Source: an uncultured Caryophanales bacterium
GTDB taxonomy: Bacteria > Bacillota_I > Bacilli_A > Acholeplasmatales > Anaeroplasmataceae
Assembly: GCA_946405105.1 (NCBI GenBank)
Contig: CAMJFY010000013.1
Span: 1-37,136, forward strand
Reading direction: 5' to 3'
Length of the DNA: 37,136 nucleotides
Of this stretch, positions 3,201-21,530 are shown piece by piece. The position numbers and the translations under genes were made by a program. A model generated the notes under the pieces. That model saw only the letters and a list, made by a program, of their open reading frames with translations. It was not told the DNA's origin and made no database searches. Positions within the stretch are counted from its first letter, which is position 1. Every line of letters begins with the position of its first letter.

Positions 3201-4862
3201 TTAGATTTTAGCTCCTTTAATTCTATTGCACTTCCAACATAATGTTTGAAGATTATCTTCAACTGTTAAACCACCTTTGGCAATTGGAATTATATGATCA
3301 ATTTCTAACAAAAGATTTGGCTCGACATGTGATGAATTACCGCAAATACAACATGTATAATTGTCTCTTTCTTTTATATGTAATCTCAGTTTTGGTGTCA
3401 TAAGAGCACGTTGCTCCTTGGCTAGTGATGCTGAAGATAATTTATTTTGAAGTTGATTAATCAATTCTCCAATATTCTCTTCTGTCATCGAAATAGTAAA
3501 CGAACGTTGTGCCATTCCTCCACCACTTGTATATACAAATTTATATTCAACATTTAATACGTTCTCATCGATAACAGCAAAGCCAAGTCGAGAATAGAAT
3601 CCATCCTCATCATCATCTAAAACAAACGAAGGAACATTTTGCATGTATTTTAAATAATCTTTCTTGTAGTTATCAATAATACATTTAGCATCTTTTAATG
3701 ATTCTAGTTCGTTTAATAAGTTTTTTAATCCTATAATTTGCTCCTTATAGAGTGATTTTTCAGGATAAAAATACTTAATTAAGTATTGCATTGGATTATT
3801 CTCAGCACTACTAAAGACATTTGAAGACAACTCTGCTGTAAAAGGTGATACTGTCTTGTTATATGTTCTTACATAATTATATACATCATCATGTTCGGTT
3901 TCATTTCTCACAATTCTAGTACCAAAAGATTTTGAAATAGATTCTATCTTCTCCTCAATATAAGAATTAAAATCTTTCTGCGAATTTATAAGTAATTCAC
4001 ATGTCTTCTTTAAATCTGAAAAATCCTTTGATCCATAGTAATCACGTAACCTACGATTTTTTTCTTCTATCTCTGTAACATTTTTTTCTATATCATTTAT
4101 TACAATATCAATCAAAACCCACTCATCACTATCAAGTTGCTTTATCTTTTGAATACTATTAACTGTTCTATCAAATAGTTTTGCAATTAAATCATCTAAA
4201 GTTTTACTTTCCTGTTTAGTAATCAAGTTTCTTTTTAAAAGATTGGCTTTTTCAATTATTCCATTTACTCGTGAGTATTTTTCTTTTTTTGTGACATCAA
4301 GCTTTTCCTTCTCTATTTCTTTTATTTCAGCTTTAGTCATATAAAGTTCTGGTGATGATTCAATTTGATTTAATGTATTTATATCTAAAGATAATAATTT
4401 ATTTGCCAAACAATTACCAGCTTTTGTTATATACATGACTTTTATAACAAATACTGATCCAAACCTAATTGCATTTGTTAAGCAGTTATATACAAAAGGA
4501 TACTCTTTTTCTTCCATAAAAGGATTTGTTTTTAAAAAATCCTTTACCATAACAATATACTTATCCTTATCCGCCAATAACTCTCTTATTATTTGAAAAT
4601 AATTTCTATTATCTTTAAAAAACGAAGAATAATCATATTTATCAAGTGTTTGTCGGCTTTTAACAACAACACCTTTATCATACTTTGCGAATAGCTTTTC
4701 AAAATTGGATTTAGAAATCTTCATATATTCAAAAGCATTATTTAGTAGGGCTAATTCTGCCTCGTGTTTCTTTTGTTCCATATATTTATAAACAACATAT
4801 GATACAAGAGCAATCAACAATATTGAGACTACTACTATTATAGGAATATAAATATACCACAT
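3201..4862 (-). CDS. Membrane-anchored coiled-coil protein with C-terminal HNH nuclease domain
   Basis: A 553-residue protein. Residues ~3-27 are one hydrophobic helix followed by KYMEQKK, predicting a membrane anchor with the bulk in the cytoplasm. Residues ~30-480 are charged, largely helical and unrecognised, with likely coiled coil around 170-310. The C-terminus is a canonical HNH module: C504/C507, D522-H523, N537 and C542/C545. ATG at 4862 follows GGAGG at 9 nt. It sits between the RecQ/UvrD fusion (37 nt upstream) and the DUF2075 helicase (26 nt downstream). An HNH nuclease tethered to the membrane suits acting on incoming DNA, but that is inference. The HNH call is firm and the middle region is unknown. 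Confidence 0.8.
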   Translation of the reverse strand: MWYIYIPIIVVVSILLIALVSYVVYKYMEQKKHEAELALLNNAFEYMKISKSNFEKLFAKYDKGVVVKSRQTLDKYDYSSFFKDNRNYFQIIRELLADKDKYIVMVKDFLKTNPFMEEKEYPFVYNCLTNAIRFGSVFVIKVMYITKAGNCLANKLLSLDINTLNQIESSPELYMTKAEIKEIEKEKLDVTKKEKYSRVNGIIEKANLLKRNLITKQESKTLDDLIAKLFDRTVNSIQKIKQLDSDEWVLIDIVINDIEKNVTEIEEKNRRLRDYYGSKDFSDLKKTCELLINSQKDFNSYIEEKIESISKSFGTRIVRNETEHDDVYNYVRTYNKTVSPFTAELSSNVFSSAENNPMQYLIKYFYPEKSLYKEQIIGLKNLLNELESLKDAKCIIDNYKKDYLKYMQNVPSFVLDDDEDGFYSRLGFAVIDENVLNVEYKFVYTSGGGMAQRSFTISMTEENIGELINQLQNKLSSASLAKEQRALMTPKLRLHIKERDNYTCCICGNSSHVEPNLLLEIDHIIPIAKGGLTVEDNLQTLCWKCNRIKGAKI

Positions 4863-4899: not shown

Positions 4900-7800
4900 C
4901 TAATTCTTTTTCACAAAATAAATGTCTGGCAATACTACTGCACACTTTGTTTCGTCTTCTTTATCTAACCAAACAACAACAAACCTAACATTTGATTTAT
5001 AAAATTCATATCTCATATTAAGAATATCATTATATTTCCTATCAAATGCCTGTGAAAACTTAACTAATTTAATATTTCTAGAATCAACTAAATAACCGTC
5101 TTTATAATACAATTCTGTGCCGGGCAATAATTTCGATGCCTCTTTTGTCCTAGATTTATAAAAACTTAATACTACATCTCTATGAGTTAGTTGAATACAT
5201 AAATTCGATGGTTCTGAATAGTCCCTATTATCGTATCTATAATCAATATTTTGCAACTTAGAATACTTAGATAATCCTTTTCCATTTATTTGAATATAAA
5301 GATTATTTTTAGCCCTTGTAAATGCAACATATAGTTTTCTCTTATCTTCAATAGAGAATCTTTCACCATTCTTAATCATAACAAATACGGAATCGAATTC
5401 CTTCCCCTTTGCTTTATGAATTGTTGATACAACAATTTTATTTTTATTGTAATCAACAAAATCTTCCAAATTAGATTCTCTTAAGAATTCCTTAAAGTCT
5501 GATAAATAATATTCATTGTTAATACTTTCGTAAGTTTTAAAGATTGCTTTAATTAAATCTAGATTACTACTTCCGTTGTATCTTTCAAAAAGTTTTATTT
5601 TTGCATTATTCCATGAATCTTTTAAAATAATGTTACATTCGCCTAAATCTTTAAAAAACCAACTAAATTCAATCAAATTTAATATATTAATCTTATCATC
5701 CGCTTGTATCAATTTCGCTTGAATCTTATTTTCTAATAATATACCAAGTACTTTTAAAGCATCCTCATTTGTTTCTGTTAGAAATGCAACTGTACCATCT
5801 GTTTTATTATTAAGATATTGACTAACAAGTGCATACTCTAAATTGTTAGAATTATGTTCTACAATTTCAACGCTTCCTAAATCTTTTCTAACGAAATTAA
5901 TTGGATTAGACTTCAATCTATCTGGGATACTCTTAACAAAGGAATTTGTAAAATCAATGACACGCTTTGTACTACGATAATTTTCAAGCATTTCAAAATC
6001 TTTAGCATTATATTCTGTAATAAAATTAGCTAGATGTTTTGATGATGAATCTCTAAATTCATAAATGTTTTGATCATCATCTCCAACAGCTATTACTCTC
6101 ATATCATCATTTTTTTCAATCAATAATTTTATGAGTTTATATTCTTTTTCAGACATGTCTTGTGCTTCATCAATAACAATTACAGATTTAGTGATTTTAT
6201 TAATTTCAACCTCATCATCTTCAATCATATCAATTGCTTGAGGAATAACATTATCAAATTCGCTCTCTTCACCTAATGTTCCTAGCAAATCAAAACAATA
6301 TGAATGGAATGTCTTTATGTCAACATAATTTGCAGCTGAACCAATTAATTTAATTAATCTACTCTTAAATTCAGTTGCTGCAGCTCTAGAGAATGTTAAC
6401 ATTAATAATTGTTCTGATTTTATATCTTCAAGCAATAGCAAAGAGGCTAATTTATGAACCAATACTTTAGTTTTACCACTACCAGGACCTGCAAGGACTG
6501 CTATATATTGCATAGGTGAATCTATTATTTGCTTTTGTTTTTCTGATAGTGATGCAAATAATTTATTGTATTTAGAAGGTGTTATATTCTTCTGAATTTC
6601 ACCTCTTCTATTTCCTTTAAAATATTTTTTAATAAATCCATCATATTCCAAATTAAAATAATCATTAACAAACTCTAACGCTTCATTATAATCTTTAACC
6701 ATCATGTTTGCATATTCACCAACTATATGAATTTGCTGTATTTTTAAATTATAAAACTCTTCGAATCTCTTATAATCTTCCTTTTTGTATTTAATAGCAT
6801 TATTTGATTCCAATCTCTTAATTTGAAGGGCATTATAAATAACTAAAATACCACCTTCCAAAGCAATCGAATGAATCTTACATAAATATAATAATGCATC
6901 TTCTATTTCTTTAGATGTTGCCCTATCATCTTGCGCGAACAGATTATTGTCACTATATCCCTTCTTTAATTTTAATAGTGAAAATTCTACAACTTCTTTA
7001 TCCCTTGAAGATAATGAACTTGAATATAGATAATTAAGAATATAATCTGTTACATTACTTCTTTTCTCAATTTTTTTCTCTATTTCTTCTTTAGTAAATA
7101 ATAACTCAACCTTGAAGGCATTATCATTATTATCAATATTTTTATTGATGTAGCCTAAAGTAGTCCAATATGAGAAAATAATTTTAATATTTTTAGTAGT
7201 AGAATTTTTTATTCCTTCTTTTATTGCATCATTATTAATTTGCTTAATATTTAAAAGATTAACACCTGGTTCTATTTTTTCTAATATAAATTTTTCAAGT
7301 CTAATAAATTTATCAAGGATACTTGAAGATTTATTATGAGAATCATTTTTAGAAAATGTTGCTATCATATCATTTGAATCAGCTAAAATATTAGCTTCTC
7401 TAAACTTATTTATTATATCAATAACTATTTTCTTTTCGATTCCTAATCTATCAGATATATAATCTACTCTAGATTCTGCATCATCTGATGGTGCACTTGT
7501 CTTCTTTGAAGATATAATTGATGAAAAAATTCTAACGGCATCTTCTATTTCGTCTTTTTCAAACAAAGGAGACTTTTCAATTATATTTCTTGCTTCCATG
7601 GTACTATTTACTAGTATTCCAGTGGCAAACACACGTGGTGAATTCATTCCACGTTCAATATAACCTACGCTCTCAAGAGCCGAAACTGCTGTTCTAACTC
7701 TAGTCTCTATGTCTACTATTTGATCATCCCATCCAGCTTCTCTAGCAAGTTCCAATGCAGAAAGAGAAACAACGCTTCTGTTTTTTGTTATATTTTTTAT

Positions 7801-9645
7801 AGCTTGCCATACCTGCTGAATTTCATTCATATTTAATTTTGTCTGATTTAACATCATGAAGTGAGCATCCAAATCTTCTTCGCAGAACAATACATAACAA
7901 TCGGCTTCAATTTTTTCATCACGACCGGCTCTACCTGCTTCTTGAACATAATTTTCTAGTGAATTGGAAATTTCATAATGTACTACTAAACCAACATTAG
8001 ATTTATCTACTCCCATTCCAAATGCTGAGGTTGCAACCATTACTTGAACTTTATCATATTTGAATTTATTTTGATTTTCAGTTTTTATATTTTTATCCAT
8101 CTTGCCGTGATATGCAAGTGCAGTAATACCATCAGCATTTAAACGTTCCGCAATTTGTTCAGTTGCCCTAGTTGATGAAACATAAACTATCGTTGGGCAA
8201 TTCTTATCCTTTATTATTTCTCGCAATGTTTGATATTTTTCATCCTTACTATTCTTAGGAATAACTTTATAATGTAAATTCTTTCTTGATGCTTTTGTTG
8301 TAAATAATTCAAGTGTAATATCAAGCTTTTCTTTAAAATAATCACAAATATCAGATATTACTTTTGGCTTTGCAGTTGCTGTAAAACATGACACAGGTAT
8401 TCTATCTAGTTCTTTTTTGTTGCAAATACTTTTTATAAAGTCTGCAATATAAAGATAATCAACTCTAAAATCTTGGCCCCAAGATGAAAAACAGTGAGCT
8501 TCATCAATTACAAATCTAGCCACCGATCTAGATACTAATATCTTTTCAATTGTTTTAGATCTTAATGATTCAGGAGCAATATATAAAATGCTTGCCTTCC
8601 CATCATAAAGTTTATCAATAGCAGCCTTTCTTTCAATAGGATTCAATAAACCATTAATAGTAACTGCATCAACAATTCCACGTTCTTCAAGATTATCCAC
8701 TTGGTCTTTCATTAAAGATTGCAGCGGTGAAATGACAACAGTTAATGCTTTTTCTGTTTCTCCTGCAATTAAAGCTGGTAGTTGAAATGTTAATGATTTT
8801 CCGCCACCAGTAGGAAATACTGCTAATAATGACTTTCCTGCAATAGCAGCTTTAACTGCATTTTCTTGTAATGGTTCATTACCATATTTTCTAAAATCAG
8901 GGTAATTAAAAATATCGTTCAACCTTTTTCTAGCATCAAACTTACTTGTGCAATAGGCACACCTACCGCACGAAGCACCTCGTAAATGATGTATTATTTC
9001 TTGTACTTTTGGATAATTTGCTTGCACCCATGCAGGTGTTAATGATTCTTTATCATTAACCGAAATAATAGCTAATGCATATGCTAATTCAACAGGAAAG
9101 TTTGCAATAAACATTTCTATTCTAGAATTTGTACATATCATATTACCAAAATAATCTCTGATATCGCTAGCTAAAAACTTAGTCTTATTAATTGATACAT
9201 ATTCAAAAAAACCTCTAAATTCAGTTGTATCCACTAATAAAGTAGAATATATTTTCTTTAATGCAATTGGAAGTCTATTATATGCTGCGACTTCTTCATC
9301 AAACAATATTTTGCACTTTCTTGAATCATTTAGTGGATTATTTAATTGATCAACAATAATTTTGTCATCTTTAAGCAATTTATGGTATGGTTTTTGAGGA
9401 AACACCAATGGCGATAAAAATAATGTATCTATGAATATATATCTCCAAGGTAATGCCTTTTTAATATATTTAGAATCATGATTAATAATATTATGACCCA
9501 CAATATAGTAACTTTTCTTAATGAAAGCAGAAAAATCGGAAAAATTATTACTATGAAATGCATCTCCTTTTTCCTTTAAGGCACCAATATCTTTAATTTT
9601 TCCAGATTCAGATACTTCTGTATCTATAAAAACAATGCTTTTAAT
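4900..9645 (-). CDS. DEDD exonuclease - RecQ helicase - UvrD-like helicase fusion, probable AUU start
   Basis: About 1581 residues, numbered from the proposed AUU at 9645. Residues 1-~115 form a DnaQ-like DEDD exonuclease: VFIDTEV with D8 and E10, VGHNIINHD at 49-57, and a late Asp at ~107. A Cys cluster C226/C229/C232 precedes a RecQ core: PTGGGKS at 278-284, DEAH at 381-384, then QEAGRAGRD. Residues ~1050-1500 are a second, UvrD/PcrA-like SF1 motor: AGPGSGKT at ~1052-1059, VIDEAQD, GDDDQNIYEF, STIHKAKGKEFD and YVAFTRAK. Exonuclease plus RecQ recalls the WRN arrangement; the added UvrD motor is less usual. It heads unit A, with its own probable promoter. A conventional start would be GTG at 9501, which falls inside exonuclease motif II and would destroy that domain. 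DNA processing in defence is inferred. Confidence 0.85.
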   Translation of the reverse strand: MKSIVFIDTEVSESGKIKDIGALKEKGDAFHSNNFSDFSAFIKKSYYIVGHNIINHDSKYIKKALPWRYIFIDTLFLSPLVFPQKPYHKLLKDDKIIVDQLNNPLNDSRKCKILFDEEVAAYNRLPIALKKIYSTLLVDTTEFRGFFEYVSINKTKFLASDIRDYFGNMICTNSRIEMFIANFPVELAYALAIISVNDKESLTPAWVQANYPKVQEIIHHLRGASCGRCAYCTSKFDARKRLNDIFNYPDFRKYGNEPLQENAVKAAIAGKSLLAVFPTGGGKSLTFQLPALIAGETEKALTVVISPLQSLMKDQVDNLEERGIVDAVTINGLLNPIERKAAIDKLYDGKASILYIAPESLRSKTIEKILVSRSVARFVIDEAHCFSSWGQDFRVDYLYIADFIKSICNKKELDRIPVSCFTATAKPKVISDICDYFKEKLDITLELFTTKASRKNLHYKVIPKNSKDEKYQTLREIIKDKNCPTIVYVSSTRATEQIAERLNADGITALAYHGKMDKNIKTENQNKFKYDKVQVMVATSAFGMGVDKSNVGLVVHYEISNSLENYVQEAGRAGRDEKIEADCYVLFCEEDLDAHFMMLNQTKLNMNEIQQVWQAIKNITKNRSVVSLSALELAREAGWDDQIVDIETRVRTAVSALESVGYIERGMNSPRVFATGILVNSTMEARNIIEKSPLFEKDEIEDAVRIFSSIISSKKTSAPSDDAESRVDYISDRLGIEKKIVIDIINKFREANILADSNDMIATFSKNDSHNKSSSILDKFIRLEKFILEKIEPGVNLLNIKQINNDAIKEGIKNSTTKNIKIIFSYWTTLGYINKNIDNNDNAFKVELLFTKEEIEKKIEKRSNVTDYILNYLYSSSLSSRDKEVVEFSLLKLKKGYSDNNLFAQDDRATSKEIEDALLYLCKIHSIALEGGILVIYNALQIKRLESNNAIKYKKEDYKRFEEFYNLKIQQIHIVGEYANMMVKDYNEALEFVNDYFNLEYDGFIKKYFKGNRRGEIQKNITPSKYNKLFASLSEKQKQIIDSPMQYIAVLAGPGSGKTKVLVHKLASLLLLEDIKSEQLLMLTFSRAAATEFKSRLIKLIGSAANYVDIKTFHSYCFDLLGTLGEESEFDNVIPQAIDMIEDDEVEINKITKSVIVIDEAQDMSEKEYKLIKLLIEKNDDMRVIAVGDDDQNIYEFRDSSSKHLANFITEYNAKDFEMLENYRSTKRVIDFTNSFVKSIPDRLKSNPINFVRKDLGSVEIVEHNSNNLEYALVSQYLNNKTDGTVAFLTETNEDALKVLGILLENKIQAKLIQADDKINILNLIEFSWFFKDLGECNIILKDSWNNAKIKLFERYNGSSNLDLIKAIFKTYESINNEYYLSDFKEFLRESNLEDFVDYNKNKIVVSTIHKAKGKEFDSVFVMIKNGERFSIEDKRKLYVAFTRAKNNLYIQINGKGLSKYSKLQNIDYRYDNRDYSEPSNLCIQLTHRDVVLSFYKSRTKEASKLLPGTELYYKDGYLVDSRNIKLVKFSQAFDRKYNDILNMRYEFYKSNVRFVVVWLDKEDETKCAVVLPDIYFVKKN

Positions 9646-18416: not shown

Positions 18417-19802
18417 CTATAAAACTGCATCATATACAGATATTCTATTGCCAAATTTCTTTTCATTTTCTAATGAATACTCTGATAAATATCTACCATT
18501 TATTTCATTCGAAAAATCACCATCGATATCTATAGATGCTAATACTAAATTCTTATTATCAGTATGATAATCTCCAATATCAAATCCATCCTCAGATTGG
18601 AATTTTATGATATTAAGTTTATAACATTTAGTCATTCTAGTTGTTTCATCAGCAAACTTGCTTCCACCAACTTTGAATACTATATCATCAGGTTCAATTA
18701 ATTCTCCAGCAAGCTCATAATAATCTAATTTAGCTTTATTAAATCTTTCAAAGGCTAGATTTAAATTTCTAACTCTTGAATCAATTTTATCCTCCGATAA
18801 TAGTCTACTATCTAAAACTTTGTAAGAAACTTCAATTAATCTTAATACATAGAAATTGAAGCATGATATTGCAAAATCATTCAATTCATCAATTACAAGT
18901 TTAAATTCTTCTTCATGATTCATTAAACATCTCTTAATCTTTGTAAATGAAGTAAATATGAATTGATAATCAAGTTTAATTGATTTACCATCAAAATCTA
19001 TTTGTTCATCTAAGCAAAATCCATGAAGCCAACAATTTCTTAATGTAATAATAAGATTATAAACTTCTTCATCAAAATCAAATGCTGATGAATTATTTAA
19101 TATTTTTGACATTGACCAAGTATTATCAAATGATTTATTTGTTTTAGAACAGCATTTTTCAATGCTATAAATGATTCTTGTCATATACTTTTTAAATAAA
19201 TCATTCATAAATTGATAATTGAATTTATCAACATTATTAGGATAGATAGGCTTACCAATACCACATAATTCCTGGACAACATGTTGAGTGTTAACTTGAT
19301 AATCACTTTTTTCTTTTCCAGTCATCTTAGAAATTTCTTTAAAATATTCGAATTTGTAAAATGCTGTCACAAATGGGAAGATATTATATTTTCTTGATAA
19401 GAAATATAGTATATAAGCCTCACCATATACTGTAAGTTTATTATTTACTTCTAATGCATAATCAGGTTGTAATATATAAGTTAAATATTCAATAATGTCA
19501 TCATCTATGAATACTGGTTTTCTAAGATGAAGATGAGCATTTATATCTCTAATGCTTTTAAATACTATTAATAGTCTATTAAATTGTTCTAAAGACATAT
19601 TAGCTAAATATGGATATTCTCTTTTCACCCTATTGTACTCAAATTCATTAATATGATTTGAAACATTTAAATCAAGTTTCAATCTAAAATATCTATCTAT
19701 GTCAGAGCATAGAGCAATAACACTTGATTTAACTCCAATAGTAGTATGATTAATAACTGAATAAGCAACATCCAATGGCATTTCTAAACTTAGTTTTTTC
19801 AT
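18417..19802 (-). CDS. Candidate dual-HEPN protein, first gene of unit C
   Basis: A 461-residue, mostly helical protein that I cannot assign by overall similarity. Two short motifs stand out: R85-D-I-N-A-H90 and R255-N-C-W-L-H260. Both fit the R-x4-6-H active-site pattern of HEPN ribonucleases, and the second has the typical N after R. Each lies in a helical stretch. The C-terminal ~100 residues look more beta-rich. HEPN domains are metal-independent RNases found in abortive-infection proteins, toxins and Cas13. ATG at 19802 follows GGAGG at 6 nt. It is followed directly by the SF1 helicase gene and preceded by a structured ~200-nt leader. RNase activity is inferred from motifs only; such short motifs can arise by chance. 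Confidence 0.6.
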   Translation of the reverse strand: MKKLSLEMPLDVAYSVINHTTIGVKSSVIALCSDIDRYFRLKLDLNVSNHINEFEYNRVKREYPYLANMSLEQFNRLLIVFKSIRDINAHLHLRKPVFIDDDIIEYLTYILQPDYALEVNNKLTVYGEAYILYFLSRKYNIFPFVTAFYKFEYFKEISKMTGKEKSDYQVNTQHVVQELCGIGKPIYPNNVDKFNYQFMNDLFKKYMTRIIYSIEKCCSKTNKSFDNTWSMSKILNNSSAFDFDEEVYNLIITLRNCWLHGFCLDEQIDFDGKSIKLDYQFIFTSFTKIKRCLMNHEEEFKLVIDELNDFAISCFNFYVLRLIEVSYKVLDSRLLSEDKIDSRVRNLNLAFERFNKAKLDYYELAGELIEPDDIVFKVGGSKFADETTRMTKCYKLNIIKFQSEDGFDIGDYHTDNKNLVLASIDIDGDFSNEINGRYLSEYSLENEKKFGNRISVYDAVL

Positions 19803-19899
19803 TTGTATCCTCCGATAATATATTTTTGGAACAAATGTACTACAATTGAAAATATAATTTTCGCGCGTAAAAATATTAAATTACATCTTCTTCGTCTAA

Positions 19900-20008
19900 A
19901 ATAATTATAGTACACTCGTTGTATACTATAGGAATACGATCCTACTCAGATTTACCGGAGTAAACCTTTTTGGGTGGAACCAATAATGTGGTTACCTTCA
20001 TTGTGCAT
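19900..20008 (-). ncRNA. Structured leader or small RNA ahead of the HEPN operon (RNA2)
   Basis: Transcription from the promoter at 20013-20041 should begin near 20007. Three hairpins can be drawn on the minus strand. H1 pairs AACC with GGTT within 19967-19996. H2 is GGTTTAC-TCCG-GTAAATC at ~19948-19966, a 7-bp stem with a cUNCGg-type tetraloop. H3 is TATAGTATAC, loop AACGA, GTGTACTATA at 19906-19930, a 10-bp stem followed by a weak U-rich tract. H2 and H3 each contain a G-U pair that would be an A-C mismatch on the opposite strand, so the minus-strand RNA is favoured. It may end after H3, or continue as the ~200-nt leader of the HEPN gene. No known riboswitch class recognised. Confidence 0.6.
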
Positions 20009-20020
20009 CTAAATAATAAC
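19999..20020. repeat. 22-bp direct repeat, copy 1 (with promoter 2)
   Basis: Matches 20148-20169 at 21 of 22 positions. Read on the minus strand it starts with GTTATTATTTAG and ends in TGCACAATG, so it contains the -10 box and the first transcribed bases of RNA2. Confidence 0.85.
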
Positions 20021-20041
20021 ATTGATTTTTTTTAATGTCAA
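20013..20041 (-). promoter_or_regulatory. Promoter 2: RNA2 / HEPN operon
   Basis: On the minus strand, consensus -35 TTGACA (20041-20036), 17-bp spacer ending TGT (extended -10), and -10 TATTAT (20018-20013). It follows directly after the terminator of RNA1. Expected start near 20007, leaving ~205 nt of leader before the HEPN gene. Confidence 0.8.
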
Positions 20042-20050
20042 TGCATTTTA

Positions 20051-20081
20051 TAAAAAATAAAAGTCGCTAATTAAAGCGACT
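20051..20081 (-). terminator. Rho-independent terminator of RNA1
   Basis: On the minus strand AGTCGCT, loop TTAATT, AGCGACT (7 bp) followed by TTTATTTTTTA. It lies 10 bp upstream of the -35 box of promoter 2. Confidence 0.85.
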
Positions 20082-20157
20082 ATAATATCAAGCTGGGCGT
20101 ATTCCTATATTTTTGCACAATGAAGGTTATACACCCAATGGTTTTTACATTGTGCAC
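20051..20157 (-). ncRNA. Candidate small RNA (RNA1), ~105 nt
   Basis: A stand-alone small RNA gene by its signals: a consensus promoter (20162-20190) and a terminator (20051-20081) with no open reading frame or ribosome site between. The 5' end GGTGCACAATG can pair with CATTGTGCA ~35 nt downstream (9 bp, 20114-20122 with 20148-20156), folding the 5' half into a hairpin. The same CATTGTGCA region is complementary over 14 nt to the start of RNA2, and TATAGGAATACG over 12 nt to a second site in RNA2. It could regulate the HEPN operon by pairing to its leader, or act as a partner RNA. I recognise no known family (not tmRNA, SRP RNA, 6S or RNase P RNA). Confidence 0.65.
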
Positions 20158-20169
20158 CTAAATAATAAC
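20148..20169. repeat. 22-bp direct repeat, copy 2 (with promoter 1)
   Basis: Second copy of the repeat at 19999-20020, 149 bp away, with one mismatch. It contains the -10 box and transcription start of RNA1. The flanking -35 boxes are also TTGACA at the same distance, although the spacers differ. Confidence 0.85.
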
Positions 20170-20190
20170 TTACTTACCTCATTTTGTCAA
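20162..20190 (-). promoter_or_regulatory. Promoter 1: RNA1
   Basis: On the minus strand, -35 TTGACA (20190-20185), exactly 17 bp, -10 TATTAT (20167-20162). Predicted start near 20157-20155. Geometry is identical to promoter 2. Confidence 0.8.
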
Positions 20191-20240
20191 CAATATTACA
20201 AAATAGTTTAAAATCAAAAAAGTAAATGAATGTCGGCAAA

Positions 20241-20277
20241 AATAAAGAAAAAAGACTAGATTTTTGTAATCTAGTCT
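20241..20277 (-). terminator. Rho-independent terminator after tRNA-Ser
   Basis: On the minus strand AGACTAGATT, loop ACAAA, AATCTAGTCT (10 bp) followed by TTTTTCTTTATT. It ends the tRNA transcript ~75 nt beyond the CCA and isolates it from promoter 1. Confidence 0.85.
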
Positions 20278-20353
20278 ATCTTTCTAATAGTATTTCTAAA
20301 ATCAAACATCCATAACCAGCATATAGCTTAGTGTGTTCGACATCATTTACTAA

Positions 20354-20444
20354 TGGCGGAGCAAGAGGGATTCGAACCCTCGCACCAGTTACCCGGTCTA
20401 CTTCCTTAGCAGGGAAGCCTCTTGAGCCTCTTGAGTATTACTCC
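20354..20444 (-). tRNA. tRNA-Ser (anticodon GCU)
   Basis: A 91-nt type II tRNA with CCA encoded. The acceptor stem GGAGTAA pairs with TTGCTCC (one T-G), the anticodon loop CTGCTAA has GCT at 20408-20410, a long variable arm is present, and the T arm contains GGTTCGAATCC. It reads AGC/AGU serine codons. It has its own consensus promoter and terminator. Its 3' end faces the defence-like island, the usual side for integration at a tRNA gene. Confidence 0.95.
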
Positions 20445-20463
20445 ATACCAAGTACGCTATTTC

Positions 20464-20492
20464 ATTATATATTAATTAGACTTTCATGTCAA
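20464..20492 (-). promoter_or_regulatory. Consensus promoter of tRNA-Ser
   Basis: On the minus strand, TTGACA (20492-20487), 17-bp spacer, TATAAT (20469-20464), ending ~20 bp upstream of the mature tRNA 5' end: both hexamers perfect. Confidence 0.9.
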
Positions 20493-20510
20493 TTAAAAAC
20501 TAGCCTTTTT

Positions 20511-20542
20511 GATAATAAAAAGCACGGTTTCTAACCGTGCTT
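20511..20542 (-). terminator. Rho-independent terminator of recA
   Basis: On the minus strand AAGCACGGTT, loop AGA, AACCGTGCTT (10-bp perfect stem) followed by TTTATTATC, starting 8 nt after the recA stop codon. Confidence 0.9.
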
Positions 20543-20549
20543 ATTTTAA

Positions 20550-21530
20550 TTAAATTGCCATTAATTTTTCTTCTATTTCCTTTTCAATTTCAGGATGATC
20601 TAATAAGTATTGCTTAGTATTTTCTCTACCTTGACCAATTTTAACTCCATTGTAGCTAAACCAAGCACCACTCTTATGAATAATATCATATTCAGAAGCT
20701 AAATCAACGATTTCACCTTCCTTAGAAATACCCTTACCATAGATAATTTCTACCTGGCAAGATTTAAATGGTGGAGCAACCTTATTTTTAACAACCTTTA
20801 TGTTAGTAATATTACCTAAAACACTTGAGCCATCCTTAATTGCTTCCCCTTTTCTGATTTCCATTCTAACAGAAGCAAAGAATTTTAATGCTCTACCACC
20901 AGTTGTAGTTTCTGGGTTACCAAACATAACTCCAACCTTTTCTCTAATTTGGTTAATAAAAATCGCAACACAATTTGTCTTAGAAATTAAACCAGACATC
21001 TTTCTCATTGCTTGACTCATTAATCTAGCATGTAAACCTACATGGTTATCACCCATTTCACCATTTAGCTCTGCCTCTGGAACTAGGGCAGCAACAGAAT
21101 CGATAACAATAATGTCAACACTACCAGATTTAATTAATGCTTCAGCGATTTCTAATGCTTGCTCGCCTGAATCAGGTTGAGATAAGATTAAATTCTCTGT
21201 ATCTACTCCTAAATTCTTAGCATAAACAGGATCTAGGGCATGCTCTGCATCAATAAACGCAGCATAGCCGCCTTCCTTTTGTGCATTTGCAATAGCGTGT
21301 AATGCAAATGTTGTTTTACCTGATGATTCAGGTCCATAAATTTCGATAATTCTTCCCTTAGGGTAGCCTCCTACTCCAAGAGCCTTATCTAAGGAAATTG
21401 AACCAGTAGGGATAACCTCAACCTTTCGGTCGATATTATCGCCAAGTCTCATTACTGAGCCTTTGCCAAATTCCTTTTCAATTTGCTTCATTGCCGCCTC
21501 TAGGGCAGCTTTTCTATCAATATCAGCCAT
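20550..21530 (-). CDS. recA: Recombinase RecA
   Basis: A 326-residue RecA, the ATP-dependent strand-exchange protein that also triggers LexA self-cleavage. Seen: N-terminal helix region, Walker A GPESSGKT at 66-73, the catalytic-Glu and Walker B segments ([11 protein letters not shown]), the [20 protein letters not shown] segment around DNA-binding loop 2, and a C-terminal domain ending in a short acidic tail. Start: ATG at 21530 ([10 protein letters not shown]) follows GGAGG at 11 nt, matching other RecA proteins; an in-frame start 33 bases upstream would put that Shine-Dalgarno inside the gene. It is separated from pgsA by 60 bp with no terminator seen, so co-transcription is likely, as in many Bacillota. 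It ends in the strong terminator at 20511-20542. Confidence 0.98.

Follow-up and report, generated by a model that had tools for sequence, protein, structure and literature searches.

Two mutually complementary RNAs upstream of a putative defense operon encoding an SF1 helicase and an undescribed protein family: a candidate strand-displacement switch

The window analyzed here is a stretch of 37,136 nucleotides that constitutes contig C13 of a 1.43-Mb draft genome. Its minus strand carries an operon with two core genes. The first, P0002 (15899..18406), encodes an 835-aa protein identified by profile matches as an SF1 helicase of the IGHMBP2/Upf1 type, and the second, P0003 (14506..15993), encodes a protein of about 480–495 aa (495 from the first TTG). 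The latter represents an undescribed family, with no match at E 0.001 among Pfam, PADLOC, NCBIfam or PHROGs models, nor in a fold search against the PDB at the same threshold. Upstream of both lies an accessory gene, P0001 (18417..19802), whose 461-aa product is termed HEPN-like on account of two R[ND]xxxH motifs (RDINAH at 85 and RNCWLH at 255). Its assignment as a tandem HEPN protein is by motif alone, and at least two such motifs occur in 90 of 20000 shuffles. P0001 showed neither a Pfam HEPN match nor a PDB sequence match, and it was dropped as a search handle in favor of the helicase and P0003, since no relatives were found in genome contigs, viral contigs, plasmids or the remaining 159 genomes in the order sample. 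Elsewhere in the window, a 1533-aa protein (4900–9501) combines a DpdF-like DEAD helicase half with a UvrD helicase half, and two proteins (4–960 and 3201–4862) contain HNH regions that weakly match IscB/Cas9d models, with a gene showing ATPase-type matches between them.

Directly upstream of the operon, the minus strand holds two putative promoters of identical geometry (TTGACA-17-TATTAT; 20162..20190 and 20013..20041), 149 bp apart and each with 11 of 12 promoter matches. Both had been pointed out in an earlier sequence-only reading of this DNA, as had a 22-bp repeat that indeed accompanies them (19999–20020 and 20148–20169, 95% identical). The first would drive RNA1, about 105 nt in length (20051..20157), for which a terminator search found the anticipated terminator-like hairpin (20081–20062) followed by a T tail. 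The second precedes RNA2, a structured domain (19906..20007, start at about 20007) that forms the 5' end of the operon leader. Both are predicted to fold better than shuffled sequences, with z-scores of -3.63 (RNA1) and -2.59 (RNA2). The UNCG hairpin described for the leader folds at 19967–19948. The 10-bp hairpin that was also described (hairpin 3, 19906..19930) is possible in its full form (19930–19921 with 19915–19906), but in RNA2 alone only 7 pairs (minimum energy) or 9 (centroid) are predicted, because a neighboring stem occupies its first bases. At gathering score, Rfam 15 yielded a tRNA as its sole match in the whole window and none to RNA1 or RNA2; a search of three related loci with the limit at E = 1 gave one weak match, far from the RNAs. 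A short open frame noticed by eye in the RNA2 of the window was rejected, because the other loci compared show no ATG at the corresponding position. The 5' neighbors of the RNA region are recA and tRNA-Ser(GCT). A genus mate (G007) is 94% identical from the tRNA flank to about 20206, where the match stops; hence, an island seems to start just ahead of RNA1, going by this alignment. The interval 20206–20444, downstream of tRNA-Ser(GCT), has the appearance of an island junction, the flank being common to genus mates before the match stops.

Two exact complementarities had been claimed between the RNAs, and both are present: 14 nt (19994–20007 with 20114–20127) and 12 nt (19927–19938 with 20098–20109), the latter block overlapping the 5' arm of the 10-bp hairpin by 4 nt, also as claimed. 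A 14-nt run was obtained in none of 2000 dinucleotide shuffles of both RNAs, the longest being 12. What the first reading missed is that RNA1 and RNA2 share their 9-nt 5' end, TGCACAATG (hereafter X), and that its complement (rcX) lies inside RNA1, so that RNA1 can pair either with itself or with RNA2. The copy at the 5' end of RNA1 (20148..20156) has its partner within the same molecule at 20122–20114. Three potential intermolecular helices can be distinguished. Helix A joins CCTTCATTGTGCA of RNA1 (20114..20126), the last 9 nt of which may alternatively pair with the 5' X, to TGCACAATGAAGG of RNA2 (19995..20007). Helix B joins TATAGGAATACG (20098..20109) to CGTATTCCTATA (19927..19938); the strands of helices A and B were assigned by complementarity and by the pairing test described below. 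Helix C joins GGGTG of RNA1 (20132..20136) to CACCC of RNA2 (19972..19976, from the pairing test and cofolding), with CGCCC of RNA1 itself as the alternative partner. Between the RNA2 strands of helices A and C lies hairpin 1 (AACCA/TGGTT, 19978..19993), as obtained by cofolding, and an alignment across loci places the most conserved core of RNA2, CCAAAAAGGT-hairpin 2-TCTGAGTAGG, at 19941..19973.

Searches with P0003 and the helicase N-terminus recovered 30 distinct operon loci including the window, in records labelled as Bacilli, Clostridia, Mycoplasma, Bacteroidales, Gastranaerophilales and others. A further locus, L036 (G269), stands outside this set; its contig starts within the P0003 gene. 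The genes of two loci labelled Mycoplasma (L039 and L062) appear split because they were translated with table 11. RNA2 is present in 14 of the 30 loci and RNA1 in 13 of those 14, which bears out the expected co-occurrence of both RNAs with the operon. Model R1 was built from 13 RNA2 loci, including the window, spotted by eye and with a regular expression, and model R2 from 13 RNA1 sequences, including those of the window and L086. By construction their own sequences score 40–83 bits (R1) and 57–74 bits (R2), and nothing else exceeds 14.6 bits in 30 sources or 18 bits in 31 sources, respectively; therefore the other loci lack the RNAs. The 14th RNA2 locus (L086), found via P0003 and not part of R1, gives a partial R1 match of 20.6 bits and has the full pair by sequence. 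In an 82% complete genome (G149) RNA2 is present and RNA1 was not found by pattern or by model R2, three two-mismatch matches to the RNA1 pattern being set against 2 in a reversed control. Among 395 genomes of the class R1 gave 6 matches, of which the two strong ones are both at the operon; the four weak ones (23.6–28.8 bits), two of which (G155 and G188) keep the TGAGTAGG end, are read as chance. Six matches to the RNA2 core in viral contigs were judged to be chance from their sequences.

A DNA search of 55 genomes of the family recovered a 67% identical copy of the RNA1–RNA2 region (G044), situated directly ahead of a 64% identical helicase and without the HEPN-like gene. This full homologue in another genus, and the presence of the pair at 13 operon loci, contradict a circumstance named beforehand as a refutation, namely that the region is an insertion-element remnant. 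We give next to no credence to such an origin, or to a chance repeat beside tRNA-Ser: the region does begin near a tRNA-Ser flank common to genus mates, but in seven genomes searched RNA1 has a single match in five and none in two.

Across these loci the two RNAs show a common anatomy. RNA2 runs from X-AAGG through hairpin 1, CACCC (or CACTCC), AAAAAGGU-hairpin 2-UCUGAGUAGG and block B to hairpin 3, and its core (CCAAAAAGGT...TCTGAGTAGG) is better conserved than its pairing arms. RNA1 runs from X through a spacer, GGGTG (or GGAGTG), CCTT-rcX and the complement of block B, fused with a CRCCC copy, to the terminator; the multi-locus script returned no terminator for the window and L039, the former coming from the separate search mentioned above and the latter being assigned by eye. 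The middle of RNA1 (GGGTG...CCTT-rcX) thus has alternative partners, either the 5' X and 3' CRCCC of RNA1 itself, which would give a pseudoknot, or X-AAGG...CACCC of RNA2, and the pseudoknot strands are copies of the very RNA2 strands that would displace them. Helices A and C are nested around hairpin 1 of RNA2 as a three-way junction, and cofolding of the pair from the window gives both helices along with hairpins 1 and 2. Helix B crosses helices A and C; it was scored in 6 of 9 distinct loci and in L086 by reading, and it is absent in the L048–L057 clade. As the MAFFT alignment of hairpin 1 is one column off in places, this hairpin was judged locus by locus, the longest-stem rule having picked other stems in the window, L030 and L086. 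For hairpin 3 a best-stem rule was applied to each of the 14 loci, and the stem it chose in L048, L039 and L086 is no clear equivalent of the others. A promoter score of at least 9/12, located a few nt before the X block, accompanies 20 of the 24 RNA1 and RNA2 starts of 12 loci, as against 7.3% of shuffled upstream stretches; RNA2 of L038 and L046, scored 0 by the promoter rule, has TTTAAT as its -10.

Predicted pairing is better between cognate than between non-cognate RNAs. After dropping three of 12 loci as near-identical and leaving out L086, helix A has on average 11.44 of 12 positions paired in cognate combinations against 8.07 in non-cognate ones. Of 100000 permutations, 16 pair helices A and C together as well as this, and for helix B 2 of 720 do so (6 loci); helix C alone (4.89 of 5 cognate, 4.64 non-cognate) barely discriminates. 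The predicted RNA1:RNA2 binding energy is -18.5 kcal/mol for cognate and -9.4 for non-cognate pairs in the 10 distinct loci left after dropping three of 13 rows, this time with L086 included, and the cognate RNA2 ranks first for 6 of the 10 RNA1s, second for 3 and third for 1. The pseudoknot of RNA1 has 96.1% of its cells paired and both-side changes in 7 of 13 pairs, neither value being reached in 500 shuffles that ignore relatedness, while its further pair types show no excess (483 of 500 shuffles as high). Hairpin 2 has 95.1% of its cells paired (none of 500 shuffles as high, again ignoring relatedness) and no excess of pairs with both-side change (227 of 500 as high). In the GC-richer L086, which was reached through P0003, the pairing blocks are rewritten yet complementary, with some G-U pairs. 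Between loci the letters of the pairing blocks change while their complementarity is retained, and the comparison shows that compensatory change has kept both predicted states of RNA1, the one paired with RNA2 and the one paired with itself. By sequence, RNA1 would be a separate RNA with conserved pairing to an mRNA leader, as in trans-acting sRNAs.

As X lies across the start of each promoter and is found in direct as well as inverted orientation, X, rcX and X might alternatively be DNA operators bound by a repressor at the two promoters. The data make this a most improbable account: G-U pairs are kept (columns 10–41 are GU in 5 rows and columns 52–76 in 11), the AAGG/CCTT extension lengthens the RNA1–RNA2 match alone, helix B lies away from the promoters, and in L022, L039 and L086 no regulator gene stands between the RNAs and the helicase.

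The sequence-only reading had linked the RNAs to the HEPN-like gene, and this was not borne out. The gene adjoining the RNAs differs between loci, being HEPN-like, the helicase, or a 100–151-aa protein (followed in two loci by a pVip-type gene), and hence the helicase and P0003 emerge as the constant partners. In L030 and L031 a prokaryotic viperin-type gene lies within the RNA2-headed operon beside the 151-aa protein of unknown family; the pVip match was tested in L031 and extended to L030 by clustering. Of ten chosen neighbor and accessory proteins compared with PADLOC, six gave clear matches, one a weak match and three none, with matches in L031 to TmtA, AbiEii, AbiEi and pVip and in L022 to a UvrD/GajB-type helicase and PDC-M33A. 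Further accessory genes encode HNH, macro and NYN/OST-HTH domains, an RNase_T exonuclease, Fic and a ThiC family radical SAM protein. The last is found with a 185-aa partner beside the helicase and P0003 genes in L035, L054 and L063 (by Pfam for the first and by clustering for the other two). This gene company suggests that the operon is probably of the defense type. The helicase domain is related to that of the SF1 helicase MkoA of the PADLOC Mokosh models (helicase 247–810, model 517–1099). Mokosh systems combine a helicase with kinase or PLD partner domains; unlike these, neither P0002 nor P0003 contains a kinase or PLD domain at E 0.001.

tracrRNA and crRNA are transcribed separately, next to an operon with nuclease/helicase genes, and their pairing is conserved. 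By analogy, the RNA1:RNA2 duplex might be a working part of the machine itself, with the helicase or P0003 binding the RNA2 core and the duplex acting as scaffold or sensor. The conservation of the core above that of the pairing arms is what a protein-binding site would lead one to expect, and both strong R1 matches in the 395 class genomes are at the operon. Nevertheless, in at least nine loci that lack the RNAs the helicase and P0003-type genes are both complete, which indicates that these proteins do not need them. Unlike tracrRNA:crRNA, no array, spacer or variable guide segment was seen near the RNAs (19800–20700), and RNA1 also pairs with itself, whereas a fixed duplex would need no second, self-pairing X copy in RNA1. 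Among the operon genes the helicase alone matches a Cas-linked model, and weakly (typeIV_DinG, E 0.00088). We therefore consider this a rather unlikely role for the duplex, if one still to be reckoned with.

The nearest described system is the AbiF RNA of C. difficile (RCd22; Rfam RF03085), a single RNA of about 100 nt that lies upstream of the gene for an Abi_2 protein, is co-transcribed with it by read-through and neutralizes that protein, according to the accessible part of PMC12373285. The present RNAs resemble it in being structured, of about 100 nt, with promoter-like sites of their own and directly upstream of a putative defense gene with presumed read-through; they differ in being two and mutually complementary, and in that the core proteins are a helicase and P0003 rather than Abi_2. 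Following this precedent, RNA2 could be an antitoxin of the AbiF or type III kind that silences a toxic operon protein until RNA1 invades RNA2 and frees it, and some accessory genes do look nucleolytic (HEPN-like motifs, HNH, exonuclease). This is an unlikely explanation, in that the accessory gene varies while the RNA stays, the abiF RNA motif has no match in the whole window at gathering score, and a comparison of P0001 with Abi_2 gave no match even at E 10. Nor does 19800–20700 contain the repeated RNA units or repeat array that mark type III toxin-antitoxin systems.

To what the RNAs owe their place is suggested by the 16 loci without RNA2. Eight of these (L035, L041, L045, L047, L049, L054, L058 and L063) have two genes, c4 and c5; two (L042 and L044) have a WYL-cluster gene directly ahead of the helicase, with WYL and WCX Pfam matches in L044 and assignment by clustering in L042; two (L055 and L060) have upstream sequence with neither replacement; and four (L040, L052, L062 and L064) are on contigs cut upstream. 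L035 is cut inside the operon, such that RNAs further upstream on its contig are possible, and model R2 finds none in that genome. The c4 model (pLDDT 75) matches CARF proteins in Foldseek (Csx1-Crn2, E 1.7e-7, TM 0.57; also Csm6 and Csa3), and c5 shows weak matches, below the Pfam cut-offs, to sigma-70 region 3 and HTH domains. No member of the c4 or c5 clusters occurs in the RNA-bearing loci clustered. The motif GTTAAG-N13-22-CTATA, which was defined after inspecting these same leaders, has 14 matches spread over 7 of the 8 c4/c5 loci. All lie 18–141 nt ahead of a gene, in six loci directly ahead of the helicase; the motif is absent from the plus strand of the other 22 of the 30 loci, and where found it is expected 0.03–0.17 times per locus from shuffles. 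We read it as the putative promoter of c5.

CARF and WYL proteins have been predicted to control defense operons (Makarova et al., PMC4012209, in the part accessible). Since such proteins stand in the place of the RNAs in relatives, the position taken by the RNA pair is most likely that of a regulator, and since 10 of the 12 RNA2-less loci with upstream sequence have either CARF plus sigma-like genes or a WYL-type gene there, a regulatory role can be inferred for the RNAs. The regulator would here be an RNA, unlike the CARF and WYL regulators, which are proteins. In the accessible part of PMC7790460, the RtcR-controlled RNA repair operon couples a CARF domain to sigma-dependent transcription. 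The CARF protein and sigma-like factor of the eight RNA-less loci resemble a split analogue of RtcR, with the same coupling of CARF and sigma but, unlike RtcR, as separate genes. On the helicase tree (27 rows, L086 left out) the RNA label requires 3 changes against a shuffled mean of 7.8. It appears on either side of the midpoint root, so that possession of the RNAs may be the ancestral condition; replacement of the RNAs by proteins rests on few tree events.

The earlier suggestion that RNA1 controls the operon by altering the leader fold agrees with the comparative pattern, but its two obvious outputs did not emerge as general ones. When the RNA1-bound blocks were made unavailable for folding, the Shine-Dalgarno sequence was not freed in the predicted folds of most of 13 loci, and control of translation by Shine-Dalgarno masking was accordingly set aside as a general output. 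Predicted exposure rose clearly in L048 (0.34 to 0.63), L050 (0.25 to 0.40) and L051 (0.26 to 0.38), stayed level in the window (0.19 to 0.18) and fell in L030 (0.41 to 0.20). In L030, where RNA2 occurs without RNA1 (8785–8867), the predicted fold has block B paired close to the first gene's Shine-Dalgarno region; blocking it gave no rise in exposure. The leaders share no common terminator, and therefore no common attenuator: the hairpins beside their T-runs have -1.4 kcal/mol in the window, -0.2 in L022, -3.5 and -4.0 in L039, -4.0 in L031 and -4.3 to -7.8 in the L048–L057 clade (at a T-run about 138–150 nt into the leader). The leader of L030 has -10.0 kcal/mol beside a T-run, mostly from a hairpin further upstream, and those of L038 and L046 lack a T-run of 5 at the place tested.

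Taken together, we favor the interpretation, with a probability of roughly 0.6, that RNA1 and RNA2 together make up a strand-displacement switch by which the output of the helicase and P0003 operon, of defense type, is set. RNA1 would be held closed as a pseudoknot until some condition, such as infection or RNA damage, favors its capture of RNA2. The middle of RNA1 would then form the three-way junction with RNA2 around hairpin 1, assisted in some loci by helix B, and this might change how strongly the operon mRNA is expressed or how stable it is, or protein binding at the conserved RNA2 core; termination with other factors is another candidate output. A more specific and only tentative version is that RNA1 is an infection sensor, in which a product of phage attack opens the pseudoknot and RNA1 captures the RNA2 leader, thereby switching the defense operon on. 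If true, this would make RNA1 an RNA counterpart, evolutionarily exchangeable, of the CARF plus sigma and WYL regulators.

No report of such an RNA pair was found in the literature searched, which was largely without subscription papers and bioRxiv and is weak evidence of absence. The accessible part of the CoCoNuT paper discusses UPF1-like helicases and CARF proteins, and the terms 'noncoding RNA' and 'ncRNA' do not occur in it (PMC11090510); what was accessible of a BREX paper (PMC12839542) has no bearing on the pair. That the pairing is kept despite changes of letters, and that protein regulators occupy the same place elsewhere, suggests that the pair is an undescribed RNA switch for the operon. 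It would define an RNA class without an Rfam match in the sequences searched, and it points to an undescribed system of helicase and P0003, accompanied by viperin-type (pVip), HNH and HEPN-like genes. Most dedicated regulators known for bacterial defense operons are proteins, and a conserved two-RNA device in the place of CARF/sigma and WYL regulators would open the sensing of infection by RNA to direct testing.
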